This document shows, piece by piece, positions 2,231 through 11,315 of a stretch of DNA of 64,000 nt. The notes under the pieces were generated by a model. The model saw nothing but the letters and a program-made list of their open reading frames with translations. It had not been told where the DNA came from and did no database searches. Origin of the DNA: Terriglobia bacterium. Its GTDB lineage: Bacteria; Acidobacteriota; UBA6911. The position numbers were made by a program, and so were the translations under genes. The stretch is from NCBI GenBank assembly GCA_020072565.1, contig JAIQGI010000004.1, positions 124,001 through 188,000 of the forward strand, read 5' to 3'. Every line of letters begins with the position of its first letter. The first letter of the stretch is position 1.

Positions 2231-5200
2231 ATGCCCAAGCGCGCCGACATCAGGCGAATACTCATCATCGGCTCAGGCCCGATCGTCATCGGCCAGGCCT
2301 GTGAGTTTGACTACTCCGGCACCCAGGCCTGCAAGGCTCTGCGCGCGGAAGGATTCGAAGTGGTTCTGGTCAACTCCAATCCCGCCACCATCATGACCGA
2401 TCCGGACCTGGCCGACCGGACCTATATCGAGCCGCTCACCTGCGAATCGGTCAGCGCCATTATCGCGCGGGAACGTCCGGATGCTCTCCTGCCTACGGTC
2501 GGCGGGCAGACCGCGCTGAACCTGTCCGTGGCGCTGGCAAAGGCCGGCGTGCTGGCACAGTACGGTGTGGAGATGATCGGCGCGAAGCAGCGCGCGGTCG
2601 AAATCGCAGAGGATCGCCAGCTCTTCAAGAATGCCATGACCGAAATCGGGCTGCGGTCGGCACTGTCGCGGGTCGTGCGCACTCCGGATGAGGCGCGCAG
2701 TTTTCTCGAGCTGGCCGGCTTGCCTGTGATCACACGCCCGAGCTACACCCTGGGCGGATTTGGCGGCGGCATTGCTTACGAACAGGAGGAGTTCGAGAGC
2801 ATCGTCCGTCGCGGGCTGGACGTCTCGCCCGTCCATGAGGTGCTGGTGGAACAGTCGCTCATAGGGTGGAAAGAGTACGAACTGGAGGTGATGCGGGACC
2901 TCAACGACAACGTGGTCATCATCTGTTCGATCGAAAACTTCGATCCGATGGGCATTCACACGGGGGACTCGATCACCGTGGCTCCGGCCCAGACCCTGAC
3001 CGACAAAGAATATCAGCGCATGCGCGACGCCGCGATCCGCATCATCCGGAAGGTGGGCGTGGAGACCGGCGGATCCAACATCCAGTTTGCTGTGAACCCT
3101 CAAACCGGCGCGCTGATTGTCATCGAGATGAACCCCCGGGTCTCACGCAGCTCCGCGCTGGCTTCCAAAGCCACGGGGTTTCCCATCGCCAAGATCGCGG
3201 CCAAACTCGCCGTCGGCTATACTCTCGATGAAATTCCGAACGACATCACGAAGAAAACTCCCGCCTGCTTCGAGCCCAGCATCGATTATGTGGTAGTCAA
3301 GATTCCCAAATGGAACTTCGAGAAGTTCGCAGGGGCCGACCCGACATTGGGGACGCAGATGAAGTCGGTGGGAGAGGTGATGGCGATCGGCCGCACCTTC
3401 AAGGAGGCCCTGCTGAAGGGCGTGCGCTCGCTGGAAAGAGGAATGCTCCCGCAGGCGCTGGATCCTGAGAAGCTGCCCCGCAACCTGTTGACGCCGGTAC
3501 CCGAACGCCTTGACTATGTGCTTCTTGCCCTGATGAGAGGCCATACGGTCGAAGAGCTGCACGAGCTCACGCGCGTCGACCCCTGGTTCCTGAACCAACT
3601 GAAAGAGATCGTGGAGATAGAAAGGCGCTTGCAGGGATATTCGCTGGTTACGCTTCCCAGGGAAATGCTCCGTGAATCCAAGCGGGCGGGCTTATCGGAT
3701 CAGATGGTGGCAGGCCTGCTGCAGCCGGAAAACGGCTCGCCTGTTTTGCCCGAACAGGTCAGGCAGCGGAGACATGAACTGGGCCTCCGGCCGGTCTTTA
3801 AGCGAGTAGACACCTGCGCGGCCGAGTTCGAATCCTTCACTCCGTACCTCTATTCGACCTATGAAGACGAATGCGAGGCGGCGCCGACTCATAACAGGAA
3901 GGTCGTAGTCCTGGGCAGCGGGCCCAACCGGATCGGGCAGGGCATCGAATTCGACTATTGCTGCTGTCACGCCTCGTTTGCCCTCAGGGAAATCGGCTAC
4001 GAGACCATCATGGTCAACTGCAACCCCGAGACTGTCTCGACCGACTATGACACCTCCGACCGGCTGTACTTCGAGCCGCTCACTTTCGAGGATGTCATGG
4101 AGATTATGGCTGTCGAGAAGCCCGATGGGGTCATCGTTCAGTACGGTGGCCAGACCCCTCTCAATCTCGCCCTGAAGCTCCATGCGGCTGGAGTGCCCAT
4201 ACTGGGGACATCGCCCGAAAACATCGACCTCGCGGAGGACCGGGAACGGTTCGGCCGATTCCTGAGCGAACTCGGCATACCGCAGCCACGCAACGGGACG
4301 GCCCGATCGCCGCAGGAAGCCTCCGTGGTTGCTGCCGGCATAGGCTATCCTGTATTGGTCCGGCCTTCCTATGTTCTGGGCGGCCGCGCAATGTCCATCG
4401 TCTATGACGAAGAGTCGCTCGCGCGCTATATGACGACCGCCGTTCAGGCTTCGCCGGAGCGCCCGGTCCTGATCGATGAGTTCCTGGAAGACGCGTTTGA
4501 GTACGATGTCGATGCCCTGTGCGACGGCGAACGTGTGGTCATCGCCGGCGTGATGGAGCACGTCGAAGAGGCCGGGATTCACAGCGGCGACAGCACCTGC
4601 GTCCTGCCCCCCATAATGATCGAACCGGGTCTGCTCGCACGCATGAAGGACTTCACGCGCCGGCTGGGGCCGGCGCTCGGTGTAGTCGGACTCATGAACA
4701 TCCAGTTCGCCGTTAAGAACAGCGTCGTCTATGTGCTCGAGGTCAATCCGCGTGCGTCGCGAACCGTTCCCTACGTCAGCAAATCGACCGGCGTACCGCT
4801 CGCCAAGATTGCCGCGCGCCTGATGGTCGGTGAAAAACTGAAGGACCTCGGGCTGGCAGAGGAACTGCAGGTCCGTCGCTGCTTTGTGAAATCGCCGGTT
4901 TTTCCATTCAACAAGTTTCTCGGCGTAGATACTATCCTGGGGCCCGAGATGAAGTCGACGGGCGAAGTGATGGGCGTGGGGGCAAGCTTCGGCGTTGCAT
5001 TCGCCAAAGCCCAGATTTCCGCAGGCTCGCCTCTGCCGCGCCTGGGCACGGTCTTCCTGAGCGTAAACGATAACGACAAGGAAATGTTGCTCCCGATCGC
5101 CCGGGAGTTCGCAGCCCTGGGTTTCCGCCTGATCGCGACTTCGGGGACCCAGAAATTCCTGGTGTCCCGTGGGCTCGAAGCCGGCTTCGTCTATAAGGCC

Positions 5201-5437
5201 GGCGAAGGCACGCCCAGCGTGGTGGATGCCATCAGCAAGCGTGAAGTCGACCTGGTGATCAACACACCGCTCGGCTGTCAATCGCGTTTCGATGAAAAAG
5301 CCATCCGTCGGACATCCACCCAGTATCTCGTCCCCTGCATCACCACCCTCTCGGGCGCCCGCGCAGCCGCAAGCGCCATTCGCGCCCTCCAGCATGAACG
5401 CCTCACCGTGTGCAGCCTTCAGGAATACCACGGCTGA
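2231..5437 (+). CDS. carB: Carbamoyl-phosphate synthase large subunit
   Basis: Makes carbamoyl phosphate from bicarbonate, ATP and ammonia supplied by CarA. The 1068-residue protein has the expected duplicated architecture. Each half opens with a nucleotide-binding signature ([19 protein letters not shown] near residue 12, [17 protein letters not shown] near 560) and carries an ATP-grasp domain. A C-terminal MGS-like allosteric domain begins around residue 940. No domain is missing. It follows carA after only three bases. Confidence 0.97.
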
Positions 5438-5604: not shown

Positions 5605-6120
5605 GTGGACTCACTGGACAACCAATTTCCGACTGATCAACATGTCGGACAGCAACCGCTACCGGCACCGCCGGCGCCGCCGGCGATTACCCCGGCGATG
5701 ATGGGGTATCTCAAGCAGACAAAACCCTGGGTGCGCTTTTTATCCATCATGGGATTTATTGGAACCGGGCTCCTGTTTCTGGTCGGCCTTTTGTTGATTT
5801 TCGGCGCTGGAATTCTGGCCAGGTTCACGAGCACGGCCATAGGCGGTCTTCCGCTGGTGCTGGCCGGATGCTTGTATGCAGCTTTAGGTTGCGTCTGTTT
5901 TTTCCCGGCCTTATACCTGTTCCGTTTTGCAGATGCGATCCAGAAAGCCCTGATACGCGATCAGGTAGGCGGGATGGAAGAGGCCCTCAAGCACCAGAAG
6001 AGCTACTGGACTTTCATGGGCATTCTGGTGCTGATTATCCTGATCATCCAGATTGTGGCTCTGATGCTCGTTGTCCTCGCGGCCATCGTGGGATTGATGG
6101 GAATGAGCGGCCGTCTGTGA
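5605..6120 (+). CDS. Small membrane protein, DUF5362-like
   Basis: Unknown function. The 171-residue protein starts at GTG behind a strong AGGAGG (5594-5599). A Pro/Ala-rich N-terminus of about 40 residues (PLPAPPAPPAITPAM) precedes roughly four hydrophobic segments, at about 44-70, 77-103 and a long pair at about 130-166. A charged loop (RFADAIQKALIRDQVGGMEEALKHQKS) separates the third and fourth. This layout resembles DUF5362 family membrane proteins. It is a monocistronic gene, convergent with the glmU operon. Confidence 0.75.
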   Translation: MDSLDNQFPTDQHVGQQPLPAPPAPPAITPAMMGYLKQTKPWVRFLSIMGFIGTGLLFLVGLLLIFGAGILARFTSTAIGGLPLVLAGCLYAALGCVCFFPALYLFRFADAIQKALIRDQVGGMEEALKHQKSYWTFMGILVLIILIIQIVALMLVVLAAIVGLMGMSGRL

Positions 6121-6233: not shown

Positions 6234-6719
6234 CTAGACGTGCGGGTCTTCCGGACCTTCGTCGGCGCCCGGAGTCGTTTCGCATGAAGCGGATTCGGCT
6301 GCATCGAGGGTCCGGACTTTGTCTTTTTTCTCGCCGGGCATGCCCAGGATGGGGAAGAGATCGAAGGCCTGGTCCTGGTCGATCAGGTGCGCGCCTTCGG
6401 TGTAGAGACGGACGAAGTGAGTGCAGTATTTTCTTTGATCTCCGCCGATGCAATGGTCGACGCAGAACAGGTCGGTGTCGGTGCAGTTGACGCATTCTCC
6501 GAGAGAAACGCAGACCTTGGGCACCGTGATATGGCAGGTGTTGCAGATGGTGAACAGGTTCTCGCTCTCGGTATAGTACGGACAGTTCTCCAGAACCGTG
6601 TTCTCGCGGAAACCGTAGATGCGGCATCCCATGAAGATGTGGGATGTGGCGCCGGGGTCGGCCTCGATCTGTTCCAGACTCTCATCCACCCAGTTAATGC
6701 AATTGCGGCAGTTAATCAT
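6234..6719 (-). CDS. Cysteine-rich protein of unknown function
   Basis: I do not recognise a named family. The 161-residue protein has 13 cysteines. Twelve fall in the first 100 residues, many as CxxC-type pairs: C4/C7, C59/C62, C76/C79, with C70, C86, C90 and C99 nearby. This pattern predicts bound zinc or Fe-S clusters. There is no signal peptide, so it is likely cytoplasmic. The C-terminal 50 residues are acidic and low in cysteine. Its ATG overlaps the glmU stop (ATGA, 6716-6719), so it is translated with GlmU, as last gene of the TPR-yvcK-glmU operon. Confidence 0.75.
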   Translation of the reverse strand: MINCRNCINWVDESLEQIEADPGATSHIFMGCRIYGFRENTVLENCPYYTESENLFTICNTCHITVPKVCVSLGECVNCTDTDLFCVDHCIGGDQRKYCTHFVRLYTEGAHLIDQDQAFDLFPILGMPGEKKDKVRTLDAAESASCETTPGADEGPEDPHV

Positions 6720-8104
6720 TCAGACTGCTTGGATTCCTTCCGGCGCCGCGCCCAATCTTCTTTGATAGTTTGCCTCGACCGCGCAATTCCCAGGGCTCCC
6801 GGGGGGACGTCCTCGGTGATGGAGCTTCCTGCTGCGATATACGCCCCACGTCCGATCCGCACGGGCGCGATCAGCTGCGAATCGGTGCCGACGAAGACCT
6901 CGTCTTCGATAATGGTAGCATGTTTGCGGACGCCGTCATAATTGCAGGTGATGACCCCGGCGCCTATGTTGACATTGCGACCGATCGTGGCATCTCCCAG
7001 ATATGCCAGGTGGGCCGCCTTGGTGCCGTTGCCCAGACTGCTCTTCTTGATCTCAACGAAATTGCCGACCCGGCATTTTTCGCCGATAACACTGTGTTGC
7101 CTCAGATGGGCGCATGGTCCCACCGTGGTTCCCTTGCCGACCTCGGAATCGGTGATGAGGCAGGACTCCAGGATTTCAACCTCCTGCCCTATTACGGAAT
7201 TGGTGATGCGCGTGCCCGAATGGATGATGCTGCCCTCGCCGATGCGGGTCGCCCCCTCCAGGGTCACCATCGGATGGACCGTGACATCTTTTTCGATCAC
7301 CACATCCAGATTGATGTAGGTATTGTCCGGATCGATCAGAGTAACGCCTGCGGCCATCAGGTTCTGATTTTTTTGCGCCTGCATCGCCTTCGCGAGCTCG
7401 GCCAGCTCCCTGCGCGTGTTGATCCCGCGCAACTCCTCGAAGTCGGAGTGCAAGAGCGCCTCGACCCGCAACCCGCTGCGCTGCTGAATCGCGACGACAT
7501 CCGTGAGGTAGTACTCCTTCTGGGCGTTGCGATTGGAAATCTTCTCGAGCGCTTCGAGCAGGGGCGGGATCTGAAAACAATAAAAGCCGGCATTGATCTC
7601 GGTGATCTTTCTCTGCTCTGGTGTGGCGTCCTTTTCTTCCACGATGGCTTCGATTCGTCCGTCAGAGGTGTGCAGGATGCGGCCATAAGAAAGAGGATCC
7701 TCGTTTGCAGCAGTCAGCAGGGTGGTGGCTGCGCCGCTGCTCCGGTGATGCTCGATAAGCCTACGGAGCGTTTCCGGTTTCAGGCGGGGCGTGTCGCCGG
7801 AGAGTATCAGGATATCCCCCCGTTTTTTCCCGATTTCCGGGCGCGCCATCATGATCGCATGCCCGGTGCCGAGCTGTTCCGGCTGGAGGATGAAACGCGC
7901 CGGCAGACCTTCGAGGCCTGCCTGCACCCGCTCGGCATCCTGGCCGATCACCACGAGAATCTCCTCGGGATCAACGCCGGCCGCTGCGCGGTAAATCAGG
8001 CGCAACATCGGGGTGCCACAAAGCGTATGCAGGACTTTGGCGCGGTTGCTGACCATGCGGGTTCCCTTGCCTGCGGCCATGATGAGAACGCACAGATCTT
8101 TCAT
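6716..8104 (-). CDS. glmU: Bifunctional UDP-GlcNAc pyrophosphorylase / GlcN-1-P acetyltransferase
   Basis: Carries out the last two steps of UDP-GlcNAc synthesis for peptidoglycan and LPS. The 462-residue protein has the N-terminal nucleotidyltransferase loop LIMAAGKGTRM (residues 8-18). A C-terminal left-handed beta-helix of hexapeptide repeats begins near 250 and contains the acetyltransferase segment VEIKKSSLGNG...AAHLAYLGDA. Full length for the family. Its start overlaps the yvcK stop (ATGA at 8101-8104) and its stop overlaps the downstream Cys-rich gene. Confidence 0.97.
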   Translation of the reverse strand: MKDLCVLIMAAGKGTRMVSNRAKVLHTLCGTPMLRLIYRAAAGVDPEEILVVIGQDAERVQAGLEGLPARFILQPEQLGTGHAIMMARPEIGKKRGDILILSGDTPRLKPETLRRLIEHHRSSGAATTLLTAANEDPLSYGRILHTSDGRIEAIVEEKDATPEQRKITEINAGFYCFQIPPLLEALEKISNRNAQKEYYLTDVVAIQQRSGLRVEALLHSDFEELRGINTRRELAELAKAMQAQKNQNLMAAGVTLIDPDNTYINLDVVIEKDVTVHPMVTLEGATRIGEGSIIHSGTRITNSVIGQEVEILESCLITDSEVGKGTTVGPCAHLRQHSVIGEKCRVGNFVEIKKSSLGNGTKAAHLAYLGDATIGRNVNIGAGVITCNYDGVRKHATIIEDEVFVGTDSQLIAPVRIGRGAYIAAGSSITEDVPPGALGIARSRQTIKEDWARRRKESKQSE

Positions 8105-9150
8105 GCTTTTGCTGAAACCTCCTCCTGTGTACTCGCCCTTGCTCTCTTCCAGCAGCAGTATGCCTGATAGACCGCCTCGGCCAGCCTGTCGGGGTCGTGA
8201 CGGACGGCCCTCCCGCGTGCCAGTAAGGGTTTCTCGAAAATCCTGAGCCCCAATGCCGTGATGCGTTCGCGGTCTGTCGCGACGGGCGCGGATCCCTGCC
8301 GGCGGTACCGAGCCAGCACCGTAGGAGATATCGGCTGATCATTCAGAATGATCCAGTCGAACAGTTTGCCCCCGGTATGATTGTAGATCGCCGCCACATG
8401 GTCGGCTGCGGAGAAACCGATTGTTTCCCCGGGCTGGCTCATGAGGTTGCAGATAAAGATCTTCATGGCCGGCGATCTCCTCAACGCGCGCGCGATCCCG
8501 GGCACCAATAGATTGGGAAGGAGGCTGGTGAAGAGTGAACCTGGCCCTAACGTGATCAGGTCCGCCTTCCGGATCGCCTGAAGCACTGCCGGCACGGGCT
8601 TGCAGTCCGGTGGTGAAAGCGACAGAGAGGTGATGCGTGCCCGGCTCCTGGATATGAGGCTCTCGCCGAAGAGCCGGCTGCCGTCTTCGAGAACCGCTTT
8701 GAGGCGCACATCCTGGAGAGTGGCCGGATAGATTTTTCCCTTGATCGCCAGAACGTCGGAGCTGACTCGAATCGCTTCCAGAAAATCGCCGGTTACCCCG
8801 GTCAGCGCCGAGAGGAAGAGGTTGCCGAAACTGTGCCCGTGCAGTTGGCCGGTGCCCGCGAATCGATATTGAAACAGATGCGACAGCAGCGACTCGTCCG
8901 TGCTGAGCGCTACCATGCAGTTGCGGATGTCACCGGGAGGGAGCACCTGCAACTCCTCCCTGAGACGCCCGGAACTTCCACCATCGTCGGTAACGGTGAC
9001 AACCGCGGTCAAGCGCGTGATCCAAGGCTTGCGAGCGGGTGGTTCGATTATGGGGGGGTCGGAAACCCGGTGCTTCATTCCCTTCAGGAGACAGGACAGC
9101 CCGGTTCCACCCCCGATGGAAACGACGCTATGCAGATCTTGAGATGTCAT
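8101..9150 (-). CDS. yvcK: YvcK/GlmR (CofD-like) gluconeogenesis factor
   Basis: Member of the UPF0052/CofD-like family. In Bacillus subtilis the homologue (YvcK, renamed GlmR) binds UDP-GlcNAc and adjusts carbon flow to the cell envelope. The motif VVSIGGGTGLS near residue 9 is the glycine-rich nucleotide-sugar loop, and TVTDDGGSSGRLR lies near residue 50. I placed the start at the ATG at 9150 because the upstream gene's TAG ends one base before it (TAG-C-ATG); a longer open frame upstream would overlap that gene. This gives 349 residues, a normal length. Overlaps glmU. Confidence 0.92.
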   Translation of the reverse strand: MTSQDLHSVVSIGGGTGLSCLLKGMKHRVSDPPIIEPPARKPWITRLTAVVTVTDDGGSSGRLREELQVLPPGDIRNCMVALSTDESLLSHLFQYRFAGTGQLHGHSFGNLFLSALTGVTGDFLEAIRVSSDVLAIKGKIYPATLQDVRLKAVLEDGSRLFGESLISRSRARITSLSLSPPDCKPVPAVLQAIRKADLITLGPGSLFTSLLPNLLVPGIARALRRSPAMKIFICNLMSQPGETIGFSAADHVAAIYNHTGGKLFDWIILNDQPISPTVLARYRRQGSAPVATDRERITALGLRIFEKPLLARGRAVRHDPDRLAEAVYQAYCCWKRARASTQEEVSAKA

Positions 9151-9151
9151 G

Positions 9152-9886
9152 CTATGGCTGACCGCCTGAGGCAGGCTGGCTCCAGCCGACGAGGTCGCTG
9201 AATTCCTTCTTGCCATGGAGCGGGGTGAAGTCCGAGTCGTTCTTGGCATACACCCGGTTTTCCTCGTTCAGTTCGACTGCTCTCTGAAGATTCCGGACGG
9301 CCTCGGTCACATCGCCCTTCATCGCAAAGGACGCCGCCAAGGAGTAGTAGATGTGGTCGATATTTGGATTTCGCTCCAGGGACTGACGGAAATAGGAGAT
9401 GGCTTTCTCGTAGTCTCCCCGGTTGTGTTCGATGACTCCCAGGTTGTAAAGCTGGTCGTTGGCGACCACGGCCTTCTTGTGCGCACCTTCCTCGCGGTCG
9501 CAAATCTGCAGGTACGTGCGTGCCCGCGCCAGGATTTCCGGCTCAGCTTGATAGCTCTCGATGAGGGATTTCAATTCGGCGCGAGCTCTTTTCAGGTCTT
9601 TGTGATAAATCAGCTTTATCGCCTTTTCGAGCAGACCCAATGCAGCCGTCGTGGCTTTGGTGTCGCGCAGGAGCCGGGATGTTTCCGCTATGTTGCTGAT
9701 GGTGCTCGTTTTCTTGGATTCCGAGGGCTTCGTTTTCCTGGACTTGGCCCGAGCAGCGGGTTTCGCGATTTTTGCAGGCCTTTTGCTTTTCGGCTTCACC
9801 GAGGATCTTGCATGCGCATGGGCCGGCTTCATCGATGCTGCTTTGGCACTACCTTTAGGCTTTTTGCTGCTGCGTTTGCTTGCCAT
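9152..9886 (-). CDS. TPR-repeat protein with lysine-rich N-terminus
   Basis: First gene of the yvcK-glmU operon; function unknown. I chose the ATG at 9886 (MASKRSSKKPKG) because AAGGGG lies five bases upstream; longer in-frame extensions exist but look non-coding. Residues 1-65 are a Lys/Ala/Pro/Ser tail (KPKS, RPAKIAKP, RKTKPSE) resembling histone H1-like or AlgP-like tails. Residues about 80-225 form helical TPR-type repeats, clearest at YNLGVIEHNRGDYEKAISYF and YSLAASFAMKGDVTEAVRNL. No signal peptide. The basic tail may bind nucleic acid or polyanions, which is inference. Confidence 0.75.
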   Translation of the reverse strand: MASKRSSKKPKGSAKAASMKPAHAHARSSVKPKSKRPAKIAKPAARAKSRKTKPSESKKTSTISNIAETSRLLRDTKATTAALGLLEKAIKLIYHKDLKRARAELKSLIESYQAEPEILARARTYLQICDREEGAHKKAVVANDQLYNLGVIEHNRGDYEKAISYFRQSLERNPNIDHIYYSLAASFAMKGDVTEAVRNLQRAVELNEENRVYAKNDSDFTPLHGKKEFSDLVGWSQPASGGQP

Positions 9887-10018: not shown

Positions 10019-10048
10019 ATTATTAGGAGAATTCGGTCGATAAGTCAA
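10019..10048 (-). promoter_or_regulatory. Candidate sigma70 promoter for TPR-yvcK-glmU operon
   Basis: On the minus strand TTGACT (complement of 10043-10048) is followed after 18 bases by AATAAT (complement of 10019-10024), five of six matches at each box. The implied transcript start, near 10012, gives a leader of about 125 bases before the TPR gene. Confidence 0.45.
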
Positions 10049-10184
10049 GGGTAAGGTCGGCGAGGCTTGACTCATCCCCTCTTCCCGGTCTTGCCATTCG
10101 TTGTGAGGGTGCGCCAATCGCACGTATATCGTTTTATAATTTAACAACTTACACCGACATATGCCTGCTGGATGCCAACCGTTG

Positions 10185-10703
10185 ATGAACCCGAGCAATA
10201 TCGTTCTCTACGAGGCTGAGTATTTGCGCCTCAAGTCGATTCTGGCGATGACACAGAGGGATCTTCGGGCGGACCTGGTGTTATTGATCGATCGCAGCGG
10301 CCAGCAGATCGCCTCGGAGGGGCCGGCCCACGGCATTGACATGACGGCACTGTCCTCTCTTGCAGCCGCAAATCTTGCGGCCACCGACGGCTTAGCACGT
10401 CTGGTAGGGGAACCCGAGTTTTCGATCCTCTTCCACCAGGGTAGACGACGCAGCATTCAAATCTCGGACGTGGCGAAGCGATTCTCTCTGGTGGTCGTAT
10501 TTGACGACAGCGTCTCGCTCGGCATGGTTCGACTCAGAGTAAAGCGGGCGACGGCCTATCTGGAGGAGATCCTGCGCGGTTTCCTGCGCAAGAGGGAGAG
10601 CGCCGGCTCCGCCTCCAAAGCGGCTCCGGGATCGGTGTCACCCTTCTACTTCACGGACGAGGACATTGACAAGCTTTTCAGCTTCCTTAAGCCCGGCAGC
10701 TGA
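10185..10703 (+). CDS. Roadblock/LC7-domain protein, MglB-like
   Basis: Probably a GTPase-activating or scaffold partner for the MglA-type GTPase encoded next. I use the ATG at 10185 (MNPSNIVLYE), giving 172 residues; an ATG at 10161 is possible. Residues about 10-125 fit the roadblock fold (LVLLIDRSGQQIASEG, then alternating helix and strand to LVVVFDDSVSLGMVRLRVKRA). The C-terminal 45 residues end FTDEDIDKLFSFLKPGS and may be a docking tail. A TATAAT lies at 10135-10140 without a clear -35. It is 24 bases from mglA; in Myxococcus MglB is the GAP of MglA. Confidence 0.82.
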   Translation: MNPSNIVLYEAEYLRLKSILAMTQRDLRADLVLLIDRSGQQIASEGPAHGIDMTALSSLAAANLAATDGLARLVGEPEFSILFHQGRRRSIQISDVAKRFSLVVVFDDSVSLGMVRLRVKRATAYLEEILRGFLRKRESAGSASKAAPGSVSPFYFTDEDIDKLFSFLKPGS

Positions 10704-10727: not shown

Positions 10728-11315
10728 TTGACGTTCATAAACTACGTAGCACGCGAGATCAACTGCAAGATCGTTTACTACGGACCCGGCCTGGGCGGCA
10801 AGACCACCAATCTGCAGTACCTGTATGAGATCACCGGCGCGGAGAACAAGGGCAAGCTGGTGTCACTGGCCACGGAGACGGAACGCACCTTGTTTTTTGA
10901 TTTCCTCCCCATCGATCTCGGTCAAATCCGCGGTCTGCGCACGCGCTTTCACCTCTATACCGTTCCCGGCCAGGTGTTTTACGACGCCAGCCGGAAGCTG
11001 ATCCTGCGCGGGGTCGACGGCGTGGTTTTCGTGGCCGACTCGCAGGAAGAGCGCCTGGATGCCAACCTGGAATCCATCGCCAACCTGGATCAGAACCTGA
11101 AAGAGCACGGATTCGATCTGGGCAAGATCCCCTATGTGCTGCAGCTCAACAAGCGAGACCTGCCCAACGCGATGCCTGCGGAGCAGCTCAAGCGGCTTCT
11201 CTTGCTCAAAGGCGAGCCGGTCTTTGAAGCCGTAGCCAAGAACGGCTCGGGGATTCTGGAAACGCTGAAGGGAGTGGCCCGGCAAGTGCTCGTCGAACTG
11301 CGCAAGAGCGCTTGA
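10728..11315 (+). CDS. mglA: MglA-type small Ras-like GTPase
   Basis: A bacterial Ras-superfamily switch; MglA controls polarity and motility in Myxococcus. The frame opens at a TTG (10728) behind GAGAGGGG and begins [27 protein letters not shown], aligned with MglA N-termini, so the TTG start is well supported. P-loop at residues 19-27. The switch II motif is TVPGQ (Thr78, Gln82), with Thr where Ras has Asp, typical of MglA. NKRD at 141-144 is the guanine-specificity motif. The 195 residues are full length. Its target here is unknown; no pilus or gliding genes lie nearby. Confidence 0.95.

Follow-up and report, generated by a model that had tools for sequence, protein, structure and literature searches.

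Which proteins accompany the enzymes of uridine diphosphate N-acetylglucosamine (UDP-GlcNAc) synthesis in a diderm bacterium, and could any of them help to control its supply? The question is raised by a four-gene run in a 64,000-nt stretch of a Terriglobia bacterium genome (GCA_020072565.1, contig JAIQGI010000004.1, positions 124,001 to 188,000), hereafter the window. Acidobacteriota, the phylum to which the genome belongs judging by the titles of its close relatives, are diderms; UDP-GlcNAc is a precursor shared by peptidoglycan and lipopolysaccharide, and to our knowledge its control is less well known outside Firmicutes. All four genes lie on the minus strand and encode, in order of transcription, a tetratricopeptide repeat (TPR) protein (9152..9886; 244 amino acids), GlmR, also called YvcK (8101..9150; 349 amino acids), the bifunctional glucosamine-1-phosphate acetyltransferase/N-acetylglucosamine-1-phosphate uridyltransferase GlmU (6716..8104; 462 amino acids), and a cysteine-rich protein that we call CYS (6234..6719; 161 amino acids). 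A first-pass annotation had read the four genes in the same way and proposed that the two flanking proteins may be unrecognised players in UDP-GlcNAc control. The evidence for the TPR protein is now much stronger, as its gene stands next to glmU or glmR in most genera that we surveyed, and this makes it a good candidate for a regulator, so far unrecognised, of the supply of cell-wall precursors; the companion of CYS is the TPR gene and not GlmR or GlmU.

The association of the TPR gene with the glm genes was followed in two surveys. Across 149 genomes of the phylum, with TPR matches accepted at 1e-6, a match was found in 104, and in 82 of these it precedes glmU or glmR on the same strand by no more than 6 kb: 57 times before glmU with no glmR between, 14 times before a glmR whose glmU is elsewhere, and 11 times before a glmR-glmU pair. 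The second survey applied an iterated profile to 118 regions; each genus contributed a single genome for glmU and likewise for a separate glmR, and the window genome was set aside. Here 64 of 84 genera have the TPR gene immediately before glmU or glmR, at a distance below 700 nt, and 65 of the 67 regions with a TPR fragment have it adjacent to one of the two; both remaining loci sit 2.6 kb upstream of glmR. In genomes with separate glmR and glmU, one of these has the TPR gene beside it, and in no genus do both. Since glmS follows glmU in 49 pairs among the same regions, a common plan of TPR-(glmR)-glmU emerges, in which glmS often comes next. Parsimony on a TPR-core tree requires 9 changes of neighbour type, compared with a mean of 19.4 for shuffled labels, so the link appears to have outlasted several rearrangements, though the tree was built on about 150 residues and the count is rough. 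The TPR core has no match among plasmids at 1e-8. Persistence beside glmU or glmR despite phylum-wide rearrangement makes the TPR protein a concrete, testable candidate for a part in UDP-GlcNAc control.

The protein itself has two dissimilar parts. It matches Pfam TPR_1 (1e-15) and the TPR end-of-group model NF047558 (4e-23), with both the repeat core and the end-of-group segment present, and an AlphaFold model places 137 residues at a predicted local distance difference test (pLDDT) score of at least 90, giving a confident helical repeat core at about residues 77–233. The N-terminus (about 1–71) scores mostly below 50 and is basic: the histone-like tail described in the first-pass annotation is borne out by 21 K or R and a single acidic residue among the first 59. 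The open reading frame, 9886..9152, ends in TAG, and an in-frame TTG start would lengthen it to 10198. Across the family of TPR proteins the N-termini differ, with K/R/A/P-rich tails in many genera, the window included, and a helix-turn-helix (HTH)-like N-terminus of the form WTxxE...ELAxxL...Ki.rmGL in about 10. A profile of the latter, for which 8 of these genera were the seeds, recognised the non-seed N-terminus of genome G006 at an E-value of 3.7e-14. Sub-threshold Pfam matches of HTH type occur in seven of nine N-termini tested, and sub-threshold matches to GcrA in three of the nine.

The two central genes are readily identified. GlmR scores 363.7 bits against TIGR01826 (cut-off 196) and belongs to that family, and its residues 8–330 match the structure of Bacillus halodurans BH3568 (2hzb, E 3.6e-86). 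The catalytic DD and N, given as D40, D41 and N198 for Listeria (PMC10128056), are kept as DD55-56 and N213, which align to B. halodurans 37-38 and 195; the alignment was to B. halodurans, with Listeria numbers running 3 higher throughout. The UDP-GlcNAc-binding residues Y265 and R301 of B. subtilis GlmR (PMC7525490) are likewise kept as Y282 and R317, aligned to B. halodurans 264 and 300 at a constant offset of 1 from B. subtilis numbering. Because catalytic and ligand residues are both conserved, GlmR is likely to bind UDP-GlcNAc. GlmU is a bifunctional equivalog of near full length by TIGR01173 (584.8 bits, cut-off 366.85) and also exceeds the cut-off of NF010934 (586.9 bits). Both genes are present in 69 of the 149 genomes, and in 24 of these glmR precedes glmU by no more than 8 kb.

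The genes of the window are packed closely, with spacings of +1, -4 and -4 bases along TPR-glmR-glmU-CYS. The glmU start lies inside the GlmR stop as ATGA, an overlap from which the first-pass annotation drew translational coupling; a second ATGA, in which the CYS start lies inside the GlmU stop, had gone unmentioned. A start at -4 is found in 9 of 23 adjacent glmR-glmU pairs (those up to 400 nt apart, counting the window and one glmR remnant), and among the other 14 the spacing ranges from an overlap of 52 nt to a gap of 270 nt. The overlap is thus ordinary, and its frequency and variability rule it out as a special signal.

The full four-gene order is found in the window's family only, and it is decaying there. 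The family sample comprises 15 genomes, 10 of them from a sister genus, g2. The order is complete in three genomes of three genera, the window genome included (G000, G149 at locus L079 and G151 at L083, the last with only the C-terminal part of the TPR gene on its contig), so it is not unique to one genome, as it would have been had the first-pass proposal failed. In G150 the run reads TPR, glmR remnant, glmU, CYS: the glmR DDGG has become DAGE and little of the gene is left, the decaying stretch lying at about 4267–4600 of L239. In G152, from the window's own genus, a decayed glmU end (residues 384–461, 54% identity; L240, about 5147–5380, some 160 nt from a contig end) precedes an intact CYS. 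These two genomes apparently show loss in progress inside a conserved operon.

The sister genus goes further. Nine of its ten genomes (G037, G085, G113, G122 and G153–G157, at loci L004–L007, L062, L064 and L066–L068) keep TPR-CYS without this type of GlmR and with nothing more than weak similarity to GlmU; the tenth, 76% complete, has no CYS match. Eleven of the 15 family genomes have a GlmS above the cut-off, and 8 of the 10 in the sister genus are among them. The weak GlmU matches, at 27–29% identity, may belong to another kind of sugar nucleotidyltransferase, which three examples resemble by eye. A search for a substitute pyrophosphorylase of UDPGP type matched no control genome and was uninformative. 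We also observed open reading frames of about 760–840 codons with a distant CofD/GlmR-like part in four genomes without this GlmR (G037:C3, G085:C40, G113:C233 and G122:C12), which are perhaps, at a guess, of the GAK type. A genus with neither this GlmR nor a recognisable GlmU raises the question of where its UDP-GlcNAc comes from.

A conserved promoter-like element precedes the operon in this family. The 30-bp sequence TTGACTTATCGNCNNNNTTNNCCTAATAAT (10019..10048, minus strand) lies upstream of the TPR gene in all 12 family genomes in which that DNA was examined, 11 of them carrying an exact copy and G155 one with two mismatches, while its distance to the assumed TPR start varies and the flanking DNA is otherwise poorly alignable. 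Allowing up to three mismatches, it has no other match in the window and none in 100 shuffles; allowing up to six, it has no other match in 466 kb (about 6%) of this genome, and the 118 regions from other genera contain nothing with fewer than six. A simple promoter scan picks the same site, with a promoter total for the region that is not above that of shuffles (1 vs 2.3). The same element stands before TPR-CYS in the sister genus, in genomes with neither this GlmR nor a recognisable GlmU. Conservation of its spacer suggests an operator inside the predicted promoter. This element had escaped the first-pass annotation, as had the frequent downstream glmS and an MglA-MglB module described below.

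What, then, is CYS? The 13 cysteines attributed to it are all there, and an alignment of 22 members, the window's own included, shows 12 of them to be invariant. It has no match in Pfam, NCBIfam or PHROGs and so falls in no known cysteine-rich, zinc or Fe-S family of these collections, and its best sequence match in the PDB is no better than E 0.77. The ratio of nonsynonymous to synonymous differences (pN/pS) against three relatives is 0.29–0.38, like that of GlmU and GlmR and with synonymous sites near saturation; on account of this ratio CYS looks like a real gene under constraint. Of 396 genomes of the phylum, a profile search detected CYS in 22, which belong to 10 of the 210 genera, and a pattern-based scan of GTDB contigs, which may miss distant relatives, returned 17 loci, all in Acidobacteriota. 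In 16 of the 22 genomes CYS follows the TPR gene or GlmU: 14 in the family, counting the glmU remnant, plus G062 (after TPR) and G131 (after GlmU). G062 is of another family and has TPR-CYS in a different neighbourhood. The remaining six (G074, G016, G030, G043, G068 and G079) have no such TPR, GlmR or GlmU in the examined DNA around CYS, which in G079 ends just behind it. Because TPR-CYS occurs without this GlmR and a recognisable GlmU in the nine sister-genus genomes and lies in another setting in G062, and because six further CYS genes are away from TPR and glm genes alike, the first-pass view of CYS as a partner of GlmR and GlmU loses ground. In G157 a second, partial copy (about residues 92–136; L064, 1176–1310) stands in tandem downstream of the full one.

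Divergent from the operon, on the plus strand, are genes for an MglB-like roadblock protein (10161..10703) and an MglA Ras-like GTPase (10728..11315). Both resemble the solved proteins along their length: MglA matches 6hjh over residues 1–194 of 195 (E 2.4e-88) and MglB matches M. xanthus MglB 6izw over residues 13–174 (E 8e-34), the NCBIfam MglB model NF052242 giving 72.4 bits, below its cut-off of 200. An MglA-MglB pair adjoins TPR, GlmR or GlmU in 13 of the 118 regions (12 genera; 9 divergent, 4 co-directional) as well as in the window's family. The 466 kb of this genome hold no further MglA, MglB or related TPR gene at 1e-5.

We regard the locus as the local form of an acidobacterial UDP-GlcNAc operon, in which the TPR protein would be a dedicated regulator or scaffold of UDP-GlcNAc supply and CYS a lineage-specific metal or redox accessory, a reading to which we give about an even chance. 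GlmU makes UDP-GlcNAc, and GlmR would probably bind it and add a reserve uridyltransferase activity of the kind reported for Firmicute GlmR. The TPR core may bind a protein partner, be it GlmU, GlmR or MglA, while the N-terminus, a basic tail here and HTH-like in some other lineages, probably contacts nucleic acid. Within the family the operon is probably driven by the one conserved promoter element, with the putative operator in its spacer, and CYS would be an add-on that assists the TPR protein, most likely by binding metal or sensing redox state.

Several points besides the rough tree weigh against this reading. TPR proteins bind many things, adjacency can outlast function, and a Foldseek search with the TPR fold returned generic TPR proteins only. 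All HTH matches fall under the Pfam cut-offs and the window N-terminus has no family or HTH match, and for these reasons nucleic-acid contact is something that we infer. Occurrence of TPR-CYS in the sister genus without GlmU implies that at least one role of the TPR protein needs neither GlmU nor GlmR. The AlphaFold model of CYS reaches a pLDDT of only 43 and is unfit for a fold search; the argument for metal binding comes from cysteine conservation. Finally, 20 of the 84 genera have no TPR gene at glmU or glmR; some of their contigs end close upstream and others carry a different gene. The gene standing there instead is RsmI-like or HutI-like by eye, and a HutI-like amidohydrolase, also judged by eye, was seen upstream of glmR or glmU at L156, L161, L163, L164, L166, L188, L190 and L195.

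Much of the arrangement could also be ordinary operon packaging, with the TPR gene a passive companion fixed long ago beside housekeeping glm genes, CYS downstream by chance, and overlaps that reflect no more than tight spacing. The -4 overlaps are indeed common, CYS is patchy, and carB too keeps its place, in the family as well as in two other genera of the class. However, the TPR gene is kept far more often than MglA or carB, being found in 67 of the 118 regions (65 adjacent) as against 13 and 2, and it stays with one of glmU and glmR when they part, with just two of 67 loci elsewhere; we consider simple packaging possible but doubtful. Another possibility is that TPR and CYS make up a pair in their own right, such as a metal or redox regulator, with glmR-glmU merely inserted in its operon. 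The sister-genus loci, TPR-CYS in G062 and the glmU remnant beside an intact CYS in G152 all fit such a two-gene unit, yet a TPR gene beside glmU or glmR is common (64 of 84 genera) whereas CYS is rare (10 of 210), and we find this explanation quite improbable.

The MglA-MglB neighbours invite a third account, in which the TPR protein is an MglA effector that brings GlmR and GlmU, or precursor supply, to an MreB-directed growth zone. Beyond the recurrent gene proximity, it draws on the M. xanthus TPR protein SgmX, which binds MglA-GTP (PMC7519303), on the restriction or steering of cell-wall assembly by MglA-MglB through MreB (PMC8144978), and on B. subtilis GlmR phenotypes functionally tied to MreB (PMC13046274). 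Set against this, 105 of the 118 regions have no MglA, no TPR gene was detected in 5 of the 13 that do, and SgmX, at 1,060 amino acids, need not be an orthologue of the TPR protein; we judge the account unlikely. A broader version would join MglA-MglB, the TPR effector and GlmR/GlmU in one unit, the GTPase placing or tuning precursor synthesis at the growth zone via the TPR protein and the 12-Cys protein adding metal or redox input in some lineages, and this we hold to be rather unlikely. The recurrent MglA-MglB neighbour nonetheless opens a direct test of a link between polarity and precursor supply. At the other end of the operon, convergent to CYS, a small protein at 5605–6120 of the window gives a sub-threshold match to DUF5362; nothing matches it between CYS and carB in the sister-genus loci.

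Four known systems bear comparison with this locus. As in the glmU-glmS operon of Escherichia coli K-12, glmU is often followed by glmS in the phylum; unlike it, a TPR gene stands in front, and in the window glmU is followed by CYS, with glmS on a separate contig (C11). The HTH-like N-termini of the TPR family, which we take to resemble GcrA, recall GcrA-type or Myb-like HTH domains in about 10 genera, whereas the window protein has a basic tail and nothing reaches a Pfam cut-off. The yvcJ-glmR-yvcL operon of Firmicutes and Actinobacteria also ties glmR to UDP-GlcNAc control, and its GlmR residues are conserved here, but glmR here is with TPR and glmU. According to PMC7525490, glmR seems always associated with yvcJ (rapZ) in organisms that do not produce F420; that usual context is absent from this genome, where RapZ is on contig C14 and glmR on C4, and a RapZ/YvcJ homologue is present in 124 of the 149 genomes with no glmR within 80 kb among same-contig pairs, coordinates being compared by eye. 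Among the matches listed from open-access PubMed Central, no paper links a TPR protein with glmU or glmR, or MglA with GlmR or GlmU; three that name glmU together with mglA and mglB probably mean different genes called mgl. The last comparison is with the Myxococcus MglA-MglB system and its TPR effector: SgmX has 1,060 amino acids, whereas the TPR protein described here has 244 and is linked to glm genes, and in both cases MglA and MglB relatives are the companions of a TPR protein.

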